From Fibrobacter sp. UWP2 (GTDB lineage: Bacteria; Fibrobacterota; Fibrobacteria; Fibrobacterales; Fibrobacteraceae): a DNA stretch of 45,817 bases. The notes under the pieces were generated by a model that ran no database searches, had not been told where the DNA came from, and saw nothing but the letters and a program-made list of their open reading frames with translations. This document shows positions 6,988 through 42,461 of this stretch, one piece after another (within the stretch, counting starts at the first letter, position 1; each line of letters starts with the position of its first letter). The DNA lies in NCBI RefSeq assembly GCF_900141705.1, contig NZ_FQYM01000024.1:1-45817 (forward strand). Direction: 5' to 3'. The position numbers and the translations under genes are program-made.

Positions 6988-7395
6988 ATGTCGACGAACG
7001 TATGCGTATTTATCGGGCGACTCGCCAAGAACCCCGAAATCACCACTCTCCCGAGCGGCAAGGAGCGCACCCGCTTCAGCATCGCCGTGGACCGCGATTA
7101 CAAGAACGAGGACGGCTCGCGCACTACCGACTGGCACAACGTGGTTATCTGGGGCAGCGCGAATTACATCCGCAAGACCCACCTTGGCCAAGGCGACAAG
7201 GTGTGCGTGATGGGCCGCATGGAAAACAACGAGTGGATTGACAACGACGGCATCCAGCACCGCGAAAAGGTGCTGAACTGCAGCAAGATTGAACTGGTGC
7301 AGAAGAAGCGCAGCGACAAGGATGCCGCCGCCGAAGACACCGCAGCCGCAATGCAGCAGGGCACCCTGCAGGAAGAAGACGATTTACCGTTCTGA
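6988..7395 (+). CDS. ssb: Single-stranded DNA-binding protein (SSB)
   Basis: The 135-residue product has an OB fold: NVCVFIGRLAKNPEITTLPS, RTRFSIAVDRDYKN, DWHNVVIWGSANYI, then GDKVCVMGRMEN. A disordered Ala/Gln-rich linker leads to the acidic tip EEDDLPF, the peptide through which SSBs recruit replication and repair proteins. It protects single-stranded DNA in the cytoplasm. Being element-encoded and within the early operon, it probably serves the element's own replication. A host copy is expected elsewhere. Confidence 0.95.
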   Translation: MSTNVCVFIGRLAKNPEITTLPSGKERTRFSIAVDRDYKNEDGSRTTDWHNVVIWGSANYIRKTHLGQGDKVCVMGRMENNEWIDNDGIQHREKVLNCSKIELVQKKRSDKDAAAEDTAAAMQQGTLQEEDDLPF

Positions 7396-8149: not shown

Positions 8150-9940
8150 ATGAAAAATTCAAGACCGTGGATGAACAGCGACGTCGCAGCGCTTCGGGCT
8201 GGTCGACAGCCTCACGGGCGAACGTACCGGGCATGCATGATGTTCTGCATCAGACACGGCATCCCGTTCCCCGGGAAAAAGGCTTTCGAAGAAAACAAGG
8301 AACTCGACAAAAAATTCACACAACTACAAGGCATCATCATGACTAAAAAAACACAACCCAAGAAAAGCACGACGGCGAGCGTCAAGGACGCGAAGGCCGC
8401 GGCAAAGGCCAAGGCCACCCCCGACGCCGTGAAGGCCACAAAGCAGGACGCCACGAAGTCTGAAGAACGTTCGTACAGCTTCCGCACCATCGACGTAGAC
8501 AAAATTCTCGGCAATGGCGACAACGTCCGCAAAGTCAACGACATCGAAGATCTCGTCAGCTCGATCCAGGCGCACGGCATCATCAACCCCATCACCGTCA
8601 CGCAAGACGTCGGCATGGCTACTTACTATCGCGTCATCGCTGGTTTCCGCAGGCTTGCGGCCGCAAAGCAGCTCAAGCTGAAGAAGGTCCCGTGCCACGT
8701 GGTAAGCAAGGACACCGAAGGTTTCGATGAAATCCCGCTTTCCGAAAACGTGACGCGAATGGACATGACGCCATACGAAGAATGCATGGCCGTGAAGAGC
8801 CTTTCCAACAGCAAAAAGACGCCCGCCGCCATCGCAAAGCATTTCGGGCGCACGTTGCGCTGGGTACTGGTCCGCAAGAAGCTCGCGGACGCTGGCGAAA
8901 AAGTCCTGAAGAAGGTCAAGGAAGGCGTAATCGAACTTGCACTGGCCGCAAAGATTGCCGACCTCCCGGACAACGTCTTCAAGCGCGAGCTCGAAAGCTG
9001 CTACCGCACGGACAAGTATTTCATCGACGGAGTTCTGGACCGTTACCACAAGGACCTGAGCCGCGCACCGTTCGAGCACGAAGCCTGCCTGAAATGCGAC
9101 AAGTGCAGCGCATGCCAGGCGGACCTTTTCGAGAACGAACCGAAGGCCTACTGCCTCGATCCGAATTGCTGGGCCCGTAAGGCCAAGAAGGCCGCAGAGG
9201 CCAAAGTTAAGAAACTCCAGGAAGAAGGCAAGAATGCACGAATTGGAAAATTCTCCAGTTACGGCGTAGACTGCATGGACGAAGCCGACAAATATGAAAT
9301 CGGCAAGTATGACAGCAGCGGACAGAAGCAAGCCAAGGAAGCCGGCATCCAGAAGAGAGTCCTTGTCGATGCAGCTACTCTCAAGACGTTCGAATACTTT
9401 GACAAGCGAGACCTGCCCGACTACCACGAAGAAACTGAAGAGGAACGCGAAGCAGCAGAAGAAGAAGAAAGAAAGGAATTCCGGTTCCGTAAAACAAAAC
9501 AAGACATGACGAAAAACCGTCTCCGCAAAGCCATTGCGGAAAAGTTCCAGAAATGCGACAAGGATGACGTGATTGCACTGCTGCTCTTTTGCTGCTACGA
9601 CCTTGATGACACAATCGACGAATCGCAGTATGACATTCTCGGAATCAAGAACGACGAAAACCGCTGCGCAGGCCTTTCCGACATCGACAATCAGGTCAGG
9701 CCTTGCGACATCCACGACGCTGTTCTCGGCAGCGTTGAACACATCCTCGAGAGAACCTACGATATCGATATTCTACGGAAGATGTACTCCATCATCACTT
9801 ACGGCGACCCGAAGGAAGCCGAACCCGTGGACGACGAAGTCGAAGACGAAATCAAGCGCCAGGACGAAGAACGCACAAAGAACAAATCCGAAGACGACGA
9901 TGACGATCTTGAAAACGAGGAGGAAAACAGCGATGACTAA
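8150..9940 (+). CDS. ParB-like DNA-binding protein with Cys-rich zinc motif, 596 aa
   Basis: Residues about 107-215 are a ParB N-terminal domain (ILGNGDNVRKVNDIEDLVSS, GIINPITVTQD, VIAGFRRLAAAKQL, ENVTRMDMTPYEE), followed by a KorB-type HTH (TPAAIAKHFGRTLRWVLVRK). Next comes a Cys cluster (CLKCDKCSACQADLF then CLDPNCWARK) typical of plasmid and phage ParB relatives, then a charged helical C-terminus ending in an Asp/Glu run. Likely roles are partition, gene regulation or replication of the element. The first 63 residues read like a separate small protein fused in frame; an ATG at 8339 could be the true start, so the N-terminus is uncertain. Confidence 0.8.
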   Translation: MKNSRPWMNSDVAALRAGRQPHGRTYRACMMFCIRHGIPFPGKKAFEENKELDKKFTQLQGIIMTKKTQPKKSTTASVKDAKAAAKAKATPDAVKATKQDATKSEERSYSFRTIDVDKILGNGDNVRKVNDIEDLVSSIQAHGIINPITVTQDVGMATYYRVIAGFRRLAAAKQLKLKKVPCHVVSKDTEGFDEIPLSENVTRMDMTPYEECMAVKSLSNSKKTPAAIAKHFGRTLRWVLVRKKLADAGEKVLKKVKEGVIELALAAKIADLPDNVFKRELESCYRTDKYFIDGVLDRYHKDLSRAPFEHEACLKCDKCSACQADLFENEPKAYCLDPNCWARKAKKAAEAKVKKLQEEGKNARIGKFSSYGVDCMDEADKYEIGKYDSSGQKQAKEAGIQKRVLVDAATLKTFEYFDKRDLPDYHEETEEEREAAEEEERKEFRFRKTKQDMTKNRLRKAIAEKFQKCDKDDVIALLLFCCYDLDDTIDESQYDILGIKNDENRCAGLSDIDNQVRPCDIHDAVLGSVEHILERTYDIDILRKMYSIITYGDPKEAEPVDDEVEDEIKRQDEERTKNKSEDDDDDLENEEENSDD

Positions 9941-11654: not shown

Positions 11655-11933
11655 ATGGATAACAATAACGAAACAAACAAGCTCCCAGAATTTCTCAAGG
11701 AAATCCTCGAAAGATTAGAAACACGCAAAGACTCACCCAGCGAGAAAATCATAAAGCTGGCTATCGAACGCGACACCATCTACGACAAAATTAACCGCAA
11801 GACGAAGGAACTTGAAGCCATCGAGAACGACGCCCTCGACGAAGTTTCTTTCCTGAAAGCCCAAATCGCCGGACTAAAGGACCAAAAGGAAATTCTCGGC
11901 AAGCGCATCAAGCAGCTGGTGGACGAAACCTAA
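11655..11933 (+). CDS. Coiled-coil hypothetical protein, 92 aa
   Basis: GCAAAGGAACAGACAAATG gives a good start. The product is almost fully helical with heptad-like spacing (EFLKEILERLETRK; KINRKTKELEAIENDALDEV; FLKAQIAGLKDQKEILGKRI), suggesting an oligomeric coiled coil. Function unknown. The composite tRNA-like element begins seven bases after its stop. Confidence 0.7.
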   Translation: MDNNNETNKLPEFLKEILERLETRKDSPSEKIIKLAIERDTIYDKINRKTKELEAIENDALDEVSFLKAQIAGLKDQKEILGKRIKQLVDET

Positions 11934-11940
11934 AACCACA

Positions 11941-12071
11941 TCGGATGTAGCTTAATTGGTTAAAGCGCGGCTATACCCGAATATCGGTTCGACTCCGATG
12001 AAAGAAGGTGTTAAACGGTTACACGCGGGAAGAAGGTGCCGAAGGTTGCGGGTTCGACTCCCGCCATCCGA
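11941..12071 (+). tRNA. Composite tRNA-like element with two T-arms and two D-arms
   Basis: The ends form a perfect 7-bp acceptor stem (TCGGATG 11941-11947, CATCCGA 12065-12071). A normal D-arm (GCTT/AAGC), G26, a 4-bp anticodon stem (CGGC 11968-11971, GCCG 12038-12041) and a 5-bp T-arm (GCGGG-TTCGACT-CCCGC) complete a cloverleaf. But the anticodon loop contains about 66 bases, which include a second full T-arm (ATCGG-TTCGACT-CCGAT, 11983-11999) followed by a second D-like arm (GTGT/ACAC, 12008-12024). No conventional anticodon can be assigned. It could be a fusion of two tandem tRNAs, an intron-like insertion, or a decayed phage tRNA. Confidence 0.6.
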
Positions 12072-12092
12072 GATAATAACAGGAGACACAAC

Positions 12093-12290
12093 ATGAACTT
12101 TGTAAAAATTGGTGAAAATTACATAAACATTGACAACGTGACTACAATCGAAAAAACGGAAAATGGCTATGTACTCCACTTTGCCGGACAAACACACAGC
12201 CGCAAATGCAGTAACGCCGATATGATAAAAATCAAGTTGGCGTTAGATACCGAGAAAATCGTTCTTAACAACCCTCTGGTGGAACCATGA
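12093..12290 (+). CDS. Hypothetical protein, 65 aa
   Basis: AGGAGACACAACATG provides a good start 21 bases after the tRNA-like element. The product is a small beta-rich protein (VKIGENYINIDNVTTIEKTE; NGYVLHFAGQTH) ending in a helix. It resembles in outline small phage proteins with a GENYIN-DNV pattern. No function assigned. Its end overlaps the next start by four bases. Confidence 0.65.
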   Translation: MNFVKIGENYINIDNVTTIEKTENGYVLHFAGQTHSRKCSNADMIKIKLALDTEKIVLNNPLVEP

Positions 12291-12718
12291 ACATCGTTCT
12301 CGCAATCCATCCGAAGTGGGCCACGCTGATTTATTCCGGGAAAAAGACAATCGAATTCCGCAAGTCTTTTCCGAAAATCTACTACCCGCTCATGAAGATT
12401 TTCATTTACGAAACGGCACCAGTTTGCCGCGTCACAGGATATTTCACCTGGGCCGGAACAAAGCGATTCCAGAATGTTGACTGGACAAAAGCCGACGCAT
12501 ACCACAAGAAAATCCTCGACGCCGGCTGCGTGCCTGCAGAAGATCTGAACGCCTACCAGGGCAACCGCAAGACGATTTGTGGATGGGGCGTCGAGAAGAC
12601 GGTAAAGTTTGACAGGCGGCTCACGCTGCTAGACTTTGGCATAAACACACCGCCGCAAAGCTGGTGCTATACCGACTACGAAATCACAGCCTTCGGGCAA
12701 GGGAGATCCGTAAAATGA
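12287..12718 (+). CDS. ASCH/PUA-like domain protein, 143 aa
   Basis: The opening IHPKWATLIYSGKKTIEFRK matches the start of ASCH and related PUA-like domains (xxPxxxxxIxxGxKTxExRK), with a later strand IFIYETAPVCRVTGYF. These domains bind RNA or modified nucleic acids, and are common on phages. The C-terminal part ends in GINTPPQSWCYTD. It is coupled by ATGA to both neighbours. The RNA or DNA target is not known. Confidence 0.75.
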   Translation: MNIVLAIHPKWATLIYSGKKTIEFRKSFPKIYYPLMKIFIYETAPVCRVTGYFTWAGTKRFQNVDWTKADAYHKKILDAGCVPAEDLNAYQGNRKTICGWGVEKTVKFDRRLTLLDFGINTPPQSWCYTDYEITAFGQGRSVK

Positions 12719-13747: not shown

Positions 13748-14767
13748 ATGAAACGTTACAGCATCTTCCAAAAGCACAAGCGCAGGGGCAACATGACCTG
13801 GTACGGCCGCATATCGGAAAACGGCCTGTTCCACGTCATTTCCCTCGGCACCAAGAAAAAGGCCGACGCCATCGCCTGGCTCGATCTGATGAACGCGCAG
13901 AAGTTTCTTCCGGAAGGATTCGCGAGCGACAAGCCCGACGCGCACCTGGTCGAACTCAAGAATAAGTTCGTCGATTCCATCGAGGTCGCAAACTCGGCAA
14001 GCGATTCGACGGTCCGCGCATACCAGCTCAGGCTTTCGTATTTTCTCGACTGGGCTGCATCGAGAGGCAAAAAGCTCGTGTCCCAGGTCAGCGACAAGGA
14101 CGCCGTCGACTTTTCGACCGTCATCGCCACCAAGTACGCCCCGAAGACCGCCAGCGAGATCCTGAAGCTCACCAAGGCAATGTTCTCTTTTTCCCAGCGT
14201 ATATACAAGACCATCGGGAACCCGTTCGAGTACGTGCGCCGGCCGAAGCTCAAAAGGACCGCAAAAGGCTTCTGGACGCCAGAAGAAATCAACGCCATCT
14301 TGGCCGCAGCTCCGAGCACCGCATTCCGCAAGTTCTGGGCCCTCATGGCGTTCGCCGGACTTCGCTACTTCGAAGCCCGCGATTTGCGCTGGAAAGACGT
14401 CTCCGGGGACAAGATCACGCTCATGGGCAAGGGCGACAAGCTGGCCACCGTTCCGCTGTCAGAACGCCTCAAAAACGAGCTTGGCGAGCCAGGGAACCCG
14501 GACGAAACCATCGTGGCCTCAGGGACGTTCGCCAACAACACCACGAGCATCCGCACGCTCCGTGCCGCAGTCATATCCGCCGGCCTGGATCCCGAAGGCG
14601 CAAACAACCACAAATTCCGCCACAGTTTTGCCAGCAACCTCATCAGGTCAGGCGTAAACATCAAGGCAGTCCAGCAGCTCATGCGCCACGAATCCATCGA
14701 CATCACCCTGAACACTTACTCGCACCTGATGCAAGACGACCTCAAGGATGCAATCAACGCAATCTAG
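13748..14767 (+). CDS. int: Tyrosine-type site-specific integrase, 339 aa
   Basis: The N-terminal region (to residue about 60) resembles arm-binding domains (MTWYGRISENGLFHVISLGT), followed by a SAM-like core-binding domain and the catalytic domain. The conserved set is visible: Arg206 (AGLRYFEARDL), Lys near 228-231 (MGKGDKLATVPL), His288 and Arg291 (HKFRHSFASNL), His314 (LMRHESI) and nucleophile Tyr324 (NTYSHL). It cuts and joins attachment sites at the tRNA-Lys gene whose 3' end lies 198 bases downstream. Length is usual for phage and ICE integrases. Confidence 0.95.
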   Translation: MKRYSIFQKHKRRGNMTWYGRISENGLFHVISLGTKKKADAIAWLDLMNAQKFLPEGFASDKPDAHLVELKNKFVDSIEVANSASDSTVRAYQLRLSYFLDWAASRGKKLVSQVSDKDAVDFSTVIATKYAPKTASEILKLTKAMFSFSQRIYKTIGNPFEYVRRPKLKRTAKGFWTPEEINAILAAAPSTAFRKFWALMAFAGLRYFEARDLRWKDVSGDKITLMGKGDKLATVPLSERLKNELGEPGNPDETIVASGTFANNTTSIRTLRAAVISAGLDPEGANNHKFRHSFASNLIRSGVNIKAVQQLMRHESIDITLNTYSHLMQDDLKDAINAI

Positions 14768-14963: not shown

Positions 14964-14965
14964 AG

Positions 14966-15038
<73 letters not shown>

Positions 15039-21679: not shown

Positions 21680-21762
21680 AACGCCTCTTTGAATTTTAGC
21701 CTCCCCCACCTCTAAGGTCGCAGCCCATCCACGCGGATGCAAGCAGGGAAGCGGACGTCAAA

Positions 21763-40712: not shown

Positions 40713-42461
40713 ATGTTCGATACACTCATTAAATTCTTCAATTTCTGCAATGCAGAAAACCGCCACAAATTCTACGGTTCCATTATCGTCGGCGTTTTCA
40801 ACTCCTTCTTCATGGCACTCCGTATCGGTGCCATGGCAGTCATGCTGCAGGGCGTTATTCGCCACGTGCAGGGAACGGCGCCGTTCACCATGGATATCGT
40901 TTGGCTTTCGCTTGGGATCATGGTAGTAAGCCTTATTGGCGCAACCATTACCAAGCGCGTCATGAGCATGTGGCAGACCGAAGGCGGTTACCGCACTTGT
41001 GCGAGTAAACGCATCGAGATTGCCGAACACCTGCGCTATCTGCCTATGGGCTACTTCAACAAGAACAGCCTCGGCTACATTACCTCCGTCACGACAAACA
41101 CCATGGAACAGCTCGGCGACGTGGCAACCCGCGTAGTCATGATGGTCACGCAGGGCATTCTCGACACCGTCCTCATCATCGTGATGATTGCCTTTTTCGA
41201 TTGGCGAATTGCGATTGTCGCAACCATCGGCTTTGCGATTTTCCAATTCATCAACACACTCATGCGCATGAACGTTCGCGCCATTTCGCACGAAAAAGTG
41301 GAATGCGACAGCAAGGTCGTCGAAAAAGTTCTCGAATACATCCAGGGAATTGCCGAAGTCAAGGCATACAACATGACCGGCAAGCGTTCCAAGGAACTGA
41401 ACGAAGTCATCGACAAGTGCACCGCAGCAAACATCAGCATGGAACTCAAGTGCGTCCCGCTTTCGAACTTGCAGACCTTTATTGCAAAGCTCACTGGTGT
41501 TGCCATCATGATGTTCTCGATTCATTTCTACTTGAACGGAACTATGGAACTTGCCGATTGTGCTATCATGCTCGTGTGCTCCTTCATGCTATTTGCAGTC
41601 CTTGAACTGGGCGGCAGCTACGCAGCACTCCTCCGTACAGTCGATATTTCGGTCAACCGCGCAAATGACATCTTGAACAAGCCGACCATGGATATCGATG
41701 GCGACGACATCTCCCCCGTCAATCACGACATCAAGGCAAACGGCGTCGATTTCGCCTACGACAAGCGCAAGATCATTGACAACGTGACGCTTACCATTCC
41801 CGAAAAGACGACCACGGCAATCGTGGGTCCGAGCGGTTCTGGAAAGACAACGCTTTGCCACCTGCTTTCACGCTTCTGGGATGTAAATGCAGGCTCAGTC
41901 ACTTTGGGAGGCCGCCGCGTGCAAGATTACAGCATGGACAGCCTGATGAAAAACTTCAGTTTCGTATTCCAGAACGTGTATCTGTTCCGCGATACAATTG
42001 AAAATAACATCAAGTTCGGAAACCCGGGCGCTACACACGAACAAGTCGTTGAAGCCGCCAAGAAAGCTTGCTGCCACGACTTTATCGAAAAGCTGCCCGA
42101 CGGCTACAATACAGTCATCGGCGAAGGCGGAGCAAGCCTCAGTGGTGGCGAACGCCAGCGCATCTCGATTGCTCGTGCCATCATGAAGGACTCCCCCGTC
42201 ATCATCTTGGACGAAGCCACCGCAAACGTGGACCCCGAAAACGAGCGCGACCTGATGAACGCCATCCAGGAACTGACCAAAGAGAAAACGGTCATCATGA
42301 TTGCCCACCGACTCAAAACCGTGCGCCACGCCGACCAGATTGTCGTCTTGGACAAGGGCCGCATCGTGGAACAGGGCAAGCACGAAGAACTCGTGAAGAA
42401 CGGCGGAATCTATGCCCGGTTCATCGATTCCCGCCGTGAAGCAGTCAGCTGGAAACTGTAA
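40713..42461 (+). CDS. ABC transporter, fused membrane and ATPase subunit 2
   Basis: The 582-residue partner of the preceding protein has six membrane helices and a full ATPase: VGPSGSGKTT, FVFQNVYLFRD, SLSGGERQR, VIILDEATANVDPE and MIAHRLKTV. Both sites of the heterodimer keep canonical signature and Walker motifs, so both should hydrolyse ATP. It starts directly at the end of subunit 1 and its stop shares a base with the MATE start (TAATG), a sign of tight co-translation. The substrate could be a ferric or other metal chelate; a drug-export role cannot be excluded. Confidence 0.93.
   Translation: MFDTLIKFFNFCNAENRHKFYGSIIVGVFNSFFMALRIGAMAVMLQGVIRHVQGTAPFTMDIVWLSLGIMVVSLIGATITKRVMSMWQTEGGYRTCASKRIEIAEHLRYLPMGYFNKNSLGYITSVTTNTMEQLGDVATRVVMMVTQGILDTVLIIVMIAFFDWRIAIVATIGFAIFQFINTLMRMNVRAISHEKVECDSKVVEKVLEYIQGIAEVKAYNMTGKRSKELNEVIDKCTAANISMELKCVPLSNLQTFIAKLTGVAIMMFSIHFYLNGTMELADCAIMLVCSFMLFAVLELGGSYAALLRTVDISVNRANDILNKPTMDIDGDDISPVNHDIKANGVDFAYDKRKIIDNVTLTIPEKTTTAIVGPSGSGKTTLCHLLSRFWDVNAGSVTLGGRRVQDYSMDSLMKNFSFVFQNVYLFRDTIENNIKFGNPGATHEQVVEAAKKACCHDFIEKLPDGYNTVIGEGGASLSGGERQRISIARAIMKDSPVIILDEATANVDPENERDLMNAIQELTKEKTVIMIAHRLKTVRHADQIVVLDKGRIVEQGKHEELVKNGGIYARFIDSRREAVSWKL

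Follow-up and report, generated by a model that had tools for sequence, protein, structure and literature searches.

A phage-borne tRNA-like RNA of Fibrobacter with a predicted second D/T elbow in place of the anticodon

Introduction

Positions 11941-12071 of a stretch of DNA from Fibrobacter sp. UWP2 (45,817 nucleotides in all, hereafter the window) contain the outer parts of a tRNA together with about 66 bases in the place of the anticodon loop. An earlier note on this DNA had proposed three explanations for this arrangement: a fusion of tandem tRNAs, an insert resembling an intron, or a structured RNA of a new kind. Mimicry of tRNA is known from tmRNA, Y RNAs and the ends of plant-virus RNAs. 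Which of these descriptions, if any, fits the locus is the question addressed here through the structure of the RNA, its relatives and its genomic setting.

Results and Discussion

The tRNA shell and its insert

The predicted elements of the RNA are as follows.

11941..12071, + strand: whole two-headed tRNA-like RNA (Rfam tRNA match, models R1 and R2, homologues)
11941..11947, + strand: acceptor stem, 5' strand UCGGAUG, pairing with 12065-12071
11950..11966, + strand: outer D-arm GCUU-AAUUGGUUA-AAGC (Rfam alignment)
11968..11971, + strand: outer 'anticodon' stem, 5' strand CGGC, pairing with 12038-12041; the least certain helix
11972..11975, + strand: internal loop, 5' strand UAUA, facing AAGAAGGU at 12030-12037; identical in L015
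11976..11979, + strand: inner stem, 5' strand CCCG, pairing with CGGG at 12026-12029
11983..11999, + strand: inner T-arm AUCGG-UUCGACU-CCGAU; all lineages retain the UUCGA core of the T-loop
12000..12007, + strand: linker GAAAGAAG, at the place of the acceptor and forming no stem; longer and variable in L015
12008..12024, + strand: inner D-like arm GUGU-UAAACGGUU-ACAC (fold probability, homologues)
12026..12029, + strand: inner stem, 3' strand CGGG (clean double substitution in L015, fold probability)
12030..12037, + strand: internal loop, 3' strand AAGAAGGU; L016 shares GGAAGAAGGU
12038..12041, + strand: outer 'anticodon' stem, 3' strand GCCG, pairing with 11968-11971
12048..12064, + strand: outer T-arm GCGGG-UUCGACU-CCCGC (Rfam alignment)
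12065..12071, + strand: acceptor stem, 3' strand CAUCCGA, without encoded CCA

The outer cloverleaf described in the earlier note (7-bp acceptor, D-arm, CGGC/GCCG stem and T-arm) is recovered in full, as are the T-arm and the subsequent D-like arm within the insert and the TTCGACT sequence of both T-loops; the inner 4-bp stem CCCG/CGGG was absent from its list of elements. The Rfam tRNA model (RF00005) spans 11941-12072 with a 66-nt insert at 46.2 bits (E=8e-7), the gathering score being 29 bits. Thus, the RNA has the acceptor, D and T arms of a tRNA at a score above the gathering level; the 5-bp anticodon arm is missing, together with its 7-nt loop and anticodon, and the insert lies within a 4-bp stem. 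The tmRNA model, suggested earlier as a check alongside the tRNA model, gave a lone T-arm match (E=7.7), and ARAGORN finds no tmRNA; on the window, this program makes no call at 11941-12071 and reports only a tRNA-Lys. No decodable anticodon is visible in the two-headed RNA. CCA is encoded neither by this RNA nor by the neighbouring tRNA-Lys, and the host genome possesses a full set of about 47 tRNAs. Comparison with the host genes for tRNA-His, tRNA-Arg and tRNA-Lys showed that the shell was not recently copied from any of these three.

Read outward from the shared axis, the insert consists of a stem, a T-arm, a short linker, a D-like arm and the second strand of the stem, that is, an inverted tRNA half, with the asymmetric internal loop UAUA/AAGAAGGU separating the inner CCCG/CGGG from the outer CGGC/GCCG helix. 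All three lineages retain the loop residues expected to join in a D/T elbow, GG on the D-like side and UUCGA on the T side, and the inner D-like loop of one of them, L015, is AGUUGGUA, a canonical D-loop. We infer that in three dimensions two D/T elbows flank a shared 'anticodon' axis, the inner elbow having no acceptor.

Folding under the constraint of the shell yields probabilities of about 0.87 for the inner stem and about 0.84 for the D-like arm; the outer CGGC/GCCG helix reaches about 0.4 and is rivalled by a shifted stem of the same topology. The unconstrained minimum free energy is not unusual compared to shuffled sequences (z = -0.18), so that it is comparison, and not stability, that carries the structural case. 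When the inner T-arm was held and the rest of the sequence was shuffled (n=20,000), the 12 nested pairs of the window (outer stem, inner stem and D-like arm) were reached in 3 of the 20,000 shuffles; the counts for the other two lineages were 128/20,000 (L015) and 62/20,000 (L016).

Relatives and covariation

Homologues, the search for which had been proposed along with a check of the covariation of the outer stems, were found both in related genomes and in viral contigs. Exact or near-exact copies are present in viral contigs L004 and L006 and in the Fibrobacter genomes G007, G021 and G022. In five relatives, the RNA is 96-100% identical over 131 nt, as against 38-57% in the upstream 270 nt and 31-37% in the downstream 200 nt; such high identity amid dissimilar flanks could partly reflect recent transfer of a cassette instead of selection. 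Two homologues are more distant. L015 (G021:C3), in which the fold is preserved, is 78% identical in the aligned part and 71% over the whole RNA, and L016 (G022:C95:40911-41040), which retains the shell and the topology as a third lineage, scores 59.5 bits with model R1, with 48 bits for the best real tRNAs of the genus; its score with model R2 is higher, but R2 contains L016. Altogether, the long form is represented by only three diverged lineages, all in Fibrobacter or its likely phages.

Covariation was assessed with and without L016. The set without it consists of five distinct sequences, and the model used for the alignment had seen neither L015 nor L016. In this set, 95.7% of the cells are paired, as against 34-45% with slid partners; there are double changes in the acceptor, the inner stem and the inner T-arm, three pairs are changed on both sides, and no measure was reached in more than 3 of 500 shuffles. 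Upon inclusion of L016, 16/33 pairs are changed on both sides, which none of 500 shuffles attained, in an alignment that is fitted to the structure. The clearest individual cases are an A-U to C-G double change at acceptor pair 5 in L004, L012, L013 and L015, a clean C-G to G-C double change in the inner stem of L015, several double changes in the acceptor of L016 and a C-G to U-A double change in its outer T-arm. The changes in the acceptor, D1 and T2 of L016 are safe, whereas those in its inner helices vary with the register chosen: the covariance-model alignment produces CUUC/GAAG, UGCG/CGCA and CCGU/ACGG, whereas plain sequence alignment places GGAAGAAGGT opposite the internal loop, and not all of the same helices are formed.

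The outer stems differ in support. The acceptor covaries cleanly, whereas the 'anticodon' stem shows no clean covariation, with one pair lost in L015 and double changes in L016 that depend on the alignment. The acceptors of L004, L012 and L013 end in one or two mismatched pairs, which makes aminoacylation doubtful.

A short form and an exchangeable anticodon domain

A 91-nt RNA with the same shell and a different anticodon domain occupies the same site in L083 (G017), where the sequence immediately upstream is 96.6% identical to that of L015 over 537 nt. The domain reads UUGAGUGC...GCACUUGA, and its AAGGG loop is able to pair with CCCUU in the variable region. The short form is found at the same place in viral contigs L105 and L106, its core pattern recurs in viral contigs L112, L113, L115, L117 and L118, two of which are 141 and 167 kb long, and a blastn match in a human-gut phage scaffold (L119) shows it beside an ordinary-looking tRNA. 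The short-form RNAs are located as follows.

L083:1501-1591
L105:3283-3371
L117:10284-10374
L118:10850-10940
L119:4995-5083
L112:2711-2801, - strand
L113:1684-1774, - strand
L115:4677-4767, - strand

An invariant core, UGAAGGGAUA ... UUGAAUxCCCUUG, is shared by several unrelated phages and could form a pseudoknot. Across seven short forms, the acceptor and stem 1 covary strongly, with 98.4% of the cells paired and a covariation score higher than in any of 500 shuffles; the AAGGG/CCCUU pairing is invariant in these sequences and so speaks neither for nor against the pseudoknot. The Rfam scan of the short form returned tRNA and no other family, and for both forms there is no Rfam family beyond the generic tRNA. 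Five of the short forms are called tRNA-Ser(UGA) by ARAGORN, with mismatched anticodon stems in the two folds that were inspected. Gene finders either miss these RNAs, as ARAGORN does with the long form, or record the short form as a tRNA-Ser, and such RNAs may be common, hidden among phage 'tRNAs'.

Prophage setting

According to the domain annotation of the window genes, the RNA belongs to a plus-strand gene run that is read as the early part of a prophage. The relevant genes are listed below.

6988-7395, + strand: gene for an SSB-like protein, in the prophage gene run
8150-9940, + strand: gene for a ParB-like protein, in the prophage gene run
11655..11933, + strand: gene for a small coiled-coil-like protein of 92 aa (weak ZapB-like match, below the cut-off)
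12287-12718, + strand: ASCH-domain gene, in the prophage gene run, two genes downstream of the RNA
13748-14767, + strand: integrase gene (PF00589), adjoining tRNA-Lys
14965-15038: tRNA-Lys (ARAGORN)

The RNA starts 7 nt past the stop codon of the 92-aa gene, and the next gene follows about 21 nt downstream. The gap between the small gene and the RNA is 5-7 nt across the loci, and no consensus promoter or terminator belonging to the RNA was found close by, which together imply that the RNA is excised by processing. A homologue of the small protein is encoded immediately 5' of the RNA in every Fibrobacter-type locus that carries the RNA, and in the Fibrobacter loci with strong support (E < 1e-30) the tRNA-like RNA follows this gene in 7/7 cases. 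Conversely, three relatives (L108, L129 and L130) encode the upstream protein without the RNA, which is therefore optional cargo. The genes downstream of the RNA differ among the relatives and are unrelated. The small protein had no match in annotated phages, and as an alignment query it matched only four viral loci.

In L012, the upstream small-protein gene (G022:C95:58915-59199) has an in-frame TAG beside an intact RNA, which suggests that the RNA can persist when the small protein is broken. Contig G022:C95 holds two different long-form RNAs, at 40911-41040 and 59210-59340 (L120 and L121), 18 kb apart, each preceded by its own copy of the small-protein gene. Regarding other genes of the window, ASCH domains are thought to bind RNA, and the ASCH-domain protein encoded at 12287-12718 matches the PADLOC candidate defence family PDC-M11B. 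Rfam also detects, in the host part of the window (21683-21756, - strand), a Fibro-purF RNA, a known cis-regulatory RNA of Fibrobacter.

Alternative explanations

The arrangement could be the remains of a tandem tRNA pair that was fused by deletion and is decaying, with the nested pairing being a relic or a chance outcome and the RNA having no function. A deletion of this kind would produce the D-T-D-T order with the inner acceptor strands gone; the RNA of the window, taken by itself, permits a short local hairpin in each half; and some relatives have mismatches at the acceptor ends. Decay is hard to reconcile with an RNA that is nearly invariant between diverged flanks, with the compensatory change in the inner stem of L015, and with a constant place beside the same gene in several prophages; moreover, in L015 the first half does not form its local anticodon hairpin, so that two tandem tRNAs are not the present fold. 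We accordingly regard the decay scenario as quite improbable and retain fused tandem tRNAs, one of the options raised at the outset, as a plausible origin only. The intron-like insert fared worse. A functional tRNA with an anticodon loop interrupted by a spliced intron or an insertion would account for the almost perfect outer parts and for the position of the insert, but introns of group I and group II are far longer than 66 nt, no ribozyme family, including these two, was matched in Rfam at E up to 10, and the loop residues UAUA/AAGAAGGU that would remain in the exons give no 7-nt anticodon loop of the U33 type, whereas the insert itself is structured and conserved in sequence. Such a tRNA is very improbable.

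A less easily dismissed but still unlikely alternative is a cis-acting element, either a tRNA-like signal for cutting the polycistronic mRNA or a tRNA-mimicking operator of its own operon, the excised RNA being inert. The tight spacing between two genes, with neither promoter nor terminator, is as expected of such an element, and there is a precedent in cellular RNAs whose ends are matured by RNase P, recruited through mimicry of tRNA (PMC4810234). Nevertheless, a plain cloverleaf would suffice for cutting, which leaves the conservation or exchange of the insert unexplained, the downstream genes vary between relatives, and L108, L129 and L130 retain the upstream gene without the RNA. Finally, the RNA could be a bacterial Y RNA of the YrlA type, a kind that tethers Ro60/Rsr and whose two ends likewise pair into a stem around a D/T tRNA-like domain (PMC8394870). 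This assignment is hardly credible for the two-headed RNA: the YrlA model (RF02553) is unmatched at E up to 10 in 11900-12110, the best score in the host genome (G000) is 18 bits against a cut-off of 69, a TROVE/Ro60 gene (PF05731) was not found in that genome, and the stem made by the ends is a tRNA shell in its own right. Of the three initial options, the comparative evidence favours a new structured RNA, with homologues and nested stems that are kept.

Relation to known tRNA-like RNAs

The two-headed RNA shares with canonical tRNA (RF00005) the 7-bp acceptor, the D-arm, the UUCGACU T-arm and the spacing, and differs in the lack of an anticodon loop, in the structured insert of 66 nt that holds another T-arm and a D-like arm, and in having no evident decoding capacity. 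As in YrlA and other bacterial Y RNAs (RF02553), in which the order T then D would be expected from the known architecture, a D/T tRNA-like domain lies within a stem closed by the ends, here on pairing evidence; in contrast to the Ro60-binding stem of these RNAs, the ends of the two-headed RNA form a full tRNA shell. Like tmRNA, it has tRNA-like ends and a long insertion where the anticodon arm would be, but it is far shorter, possesses a D-arm and has no evident tag reading frame. The tRNA fold probably serves RNase P-type maturation from a longer transcript, as in mascRNA and other tRNA-like processing products, from which the RNA is distinguished by the conserved two-elbow architecture and the phage setting. 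Phage tRNAs with a putative role against host defences that cleave tRNA are likewise phage-borne RNAs of the tRNA type, some with an altered anticodon loop (PMC11555353, PMC10264068), and in one case a change of the anticodon abolished the protection (PMC11555353); those RNAs are complete, whereas the two-headed RNA cannot decode, so that only action as a mimic is possible. Neither the Rfam scans nor the open-licence PMC literature searched yielded an RNA that places two tRNA elbows along one axis, a result that falls short of proving absence. We file this RNA as a variant of the tRNA-mimicking RNAs, with a modular class as the upper reading.

Proposed role and origin

Judging by the sequence comparisons, the locus probably encodes a phage-borne tRNA mimic that takes no part in decoding and has, where the anticodon would be, a structured module that can be exchanged; this estimate covers the structure and the class, not the target. 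Host tRNA-processing enzymes would cut the tRNA shell out of the polycistronic prophage transcript, with RNase P and a 3' tRNA-processing enzyme performing the excision and CCA being added subsequently. The module of this prophage would be an extended, interrupted 'anticodon' helix ending in an inverted, acceptor-less D/T elbow. The downstream gene differs among the relatives, and for this reason we prefer action in trans, which might be directed at a tRNA-recognising host protein, for example, a tRNA-cleaving or tRNA-modifying enzyme.

A broader proposal, which we put forward tentatively, is a modular class of phage non-coding RNAs that would employ the tRNA shell as a scaffold for expression and processing and swap anticodon modules (the inverted second elbow versus the invariant, pseudoknot-capable core), each with a host defence protein or tRNA-binding protein as its target. 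A specific role as a decoy or inhibitor of a host tRNA-binding protein during infection or lysogeny is conceivable but doubtful. Phage tRNAs have been reported to counter tRNA-cleaving defences (PMC11555353, PMC10264068), and the tRNA-like domain of YrlA has been proposed to inhibit an anticodon nuclease competitively (PMC7790460); by analogy, a codon-blind mimic with two elbows would fit a decoy role. If made and processed, the RNA would be the natural equivalent of the 'tRNA scaffold' used in the laboratory and would offer a handle on host proteins that phages engage through imitation of tRNA.

With respect to origin, the D-T-D-T order without the two abutting acceptor strands is the expected remnant of a deletion, which suggests that a tandem tRNA pair was fused in this way and then refolded. 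The sequence GGAAG-AAGGU in the 3' half of the RNA resembles positions 39-48 of a phage tRNA-Asp (L017, L018).

Other matches

Several candidates were discarded in the course of the searches. The occurrence of GGAAGAAGGT in L017 and L018 is part of the ordinary phage tRNA-Asp, L003 and L010 have no matching acceptor, and L014 is a chance match inside a reading frame. Genome-wide pattern matches in Dyella, Xanthomonas, Novosphingobium and other bacteria looked like chance coding matches, and only those in Fibrobacter are real. A search of the phylum with model R2, which scored 20 candidates per genome and may have overlooked long forms, yielded only matches of tRNA length beyond the known loci and L083. 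A pattern of two close T-loops also matched L002/L005, L007, L008 and L009, where the first TTCGACT loop was read as carrying a CGA anticodon in unusual tRNA-like genes of the Ser type; these loci are not found with model R1.

The matches in L002 (1521-1578), L005 (1435-1492), L007 (4329-4395) and L009 (126-196) are odd phage tRNA-like genes that are missed by ARAGORN and have long variable regions and a GG-UUCGACU-CC hairpin with a possible CGA anticodon (Ser).
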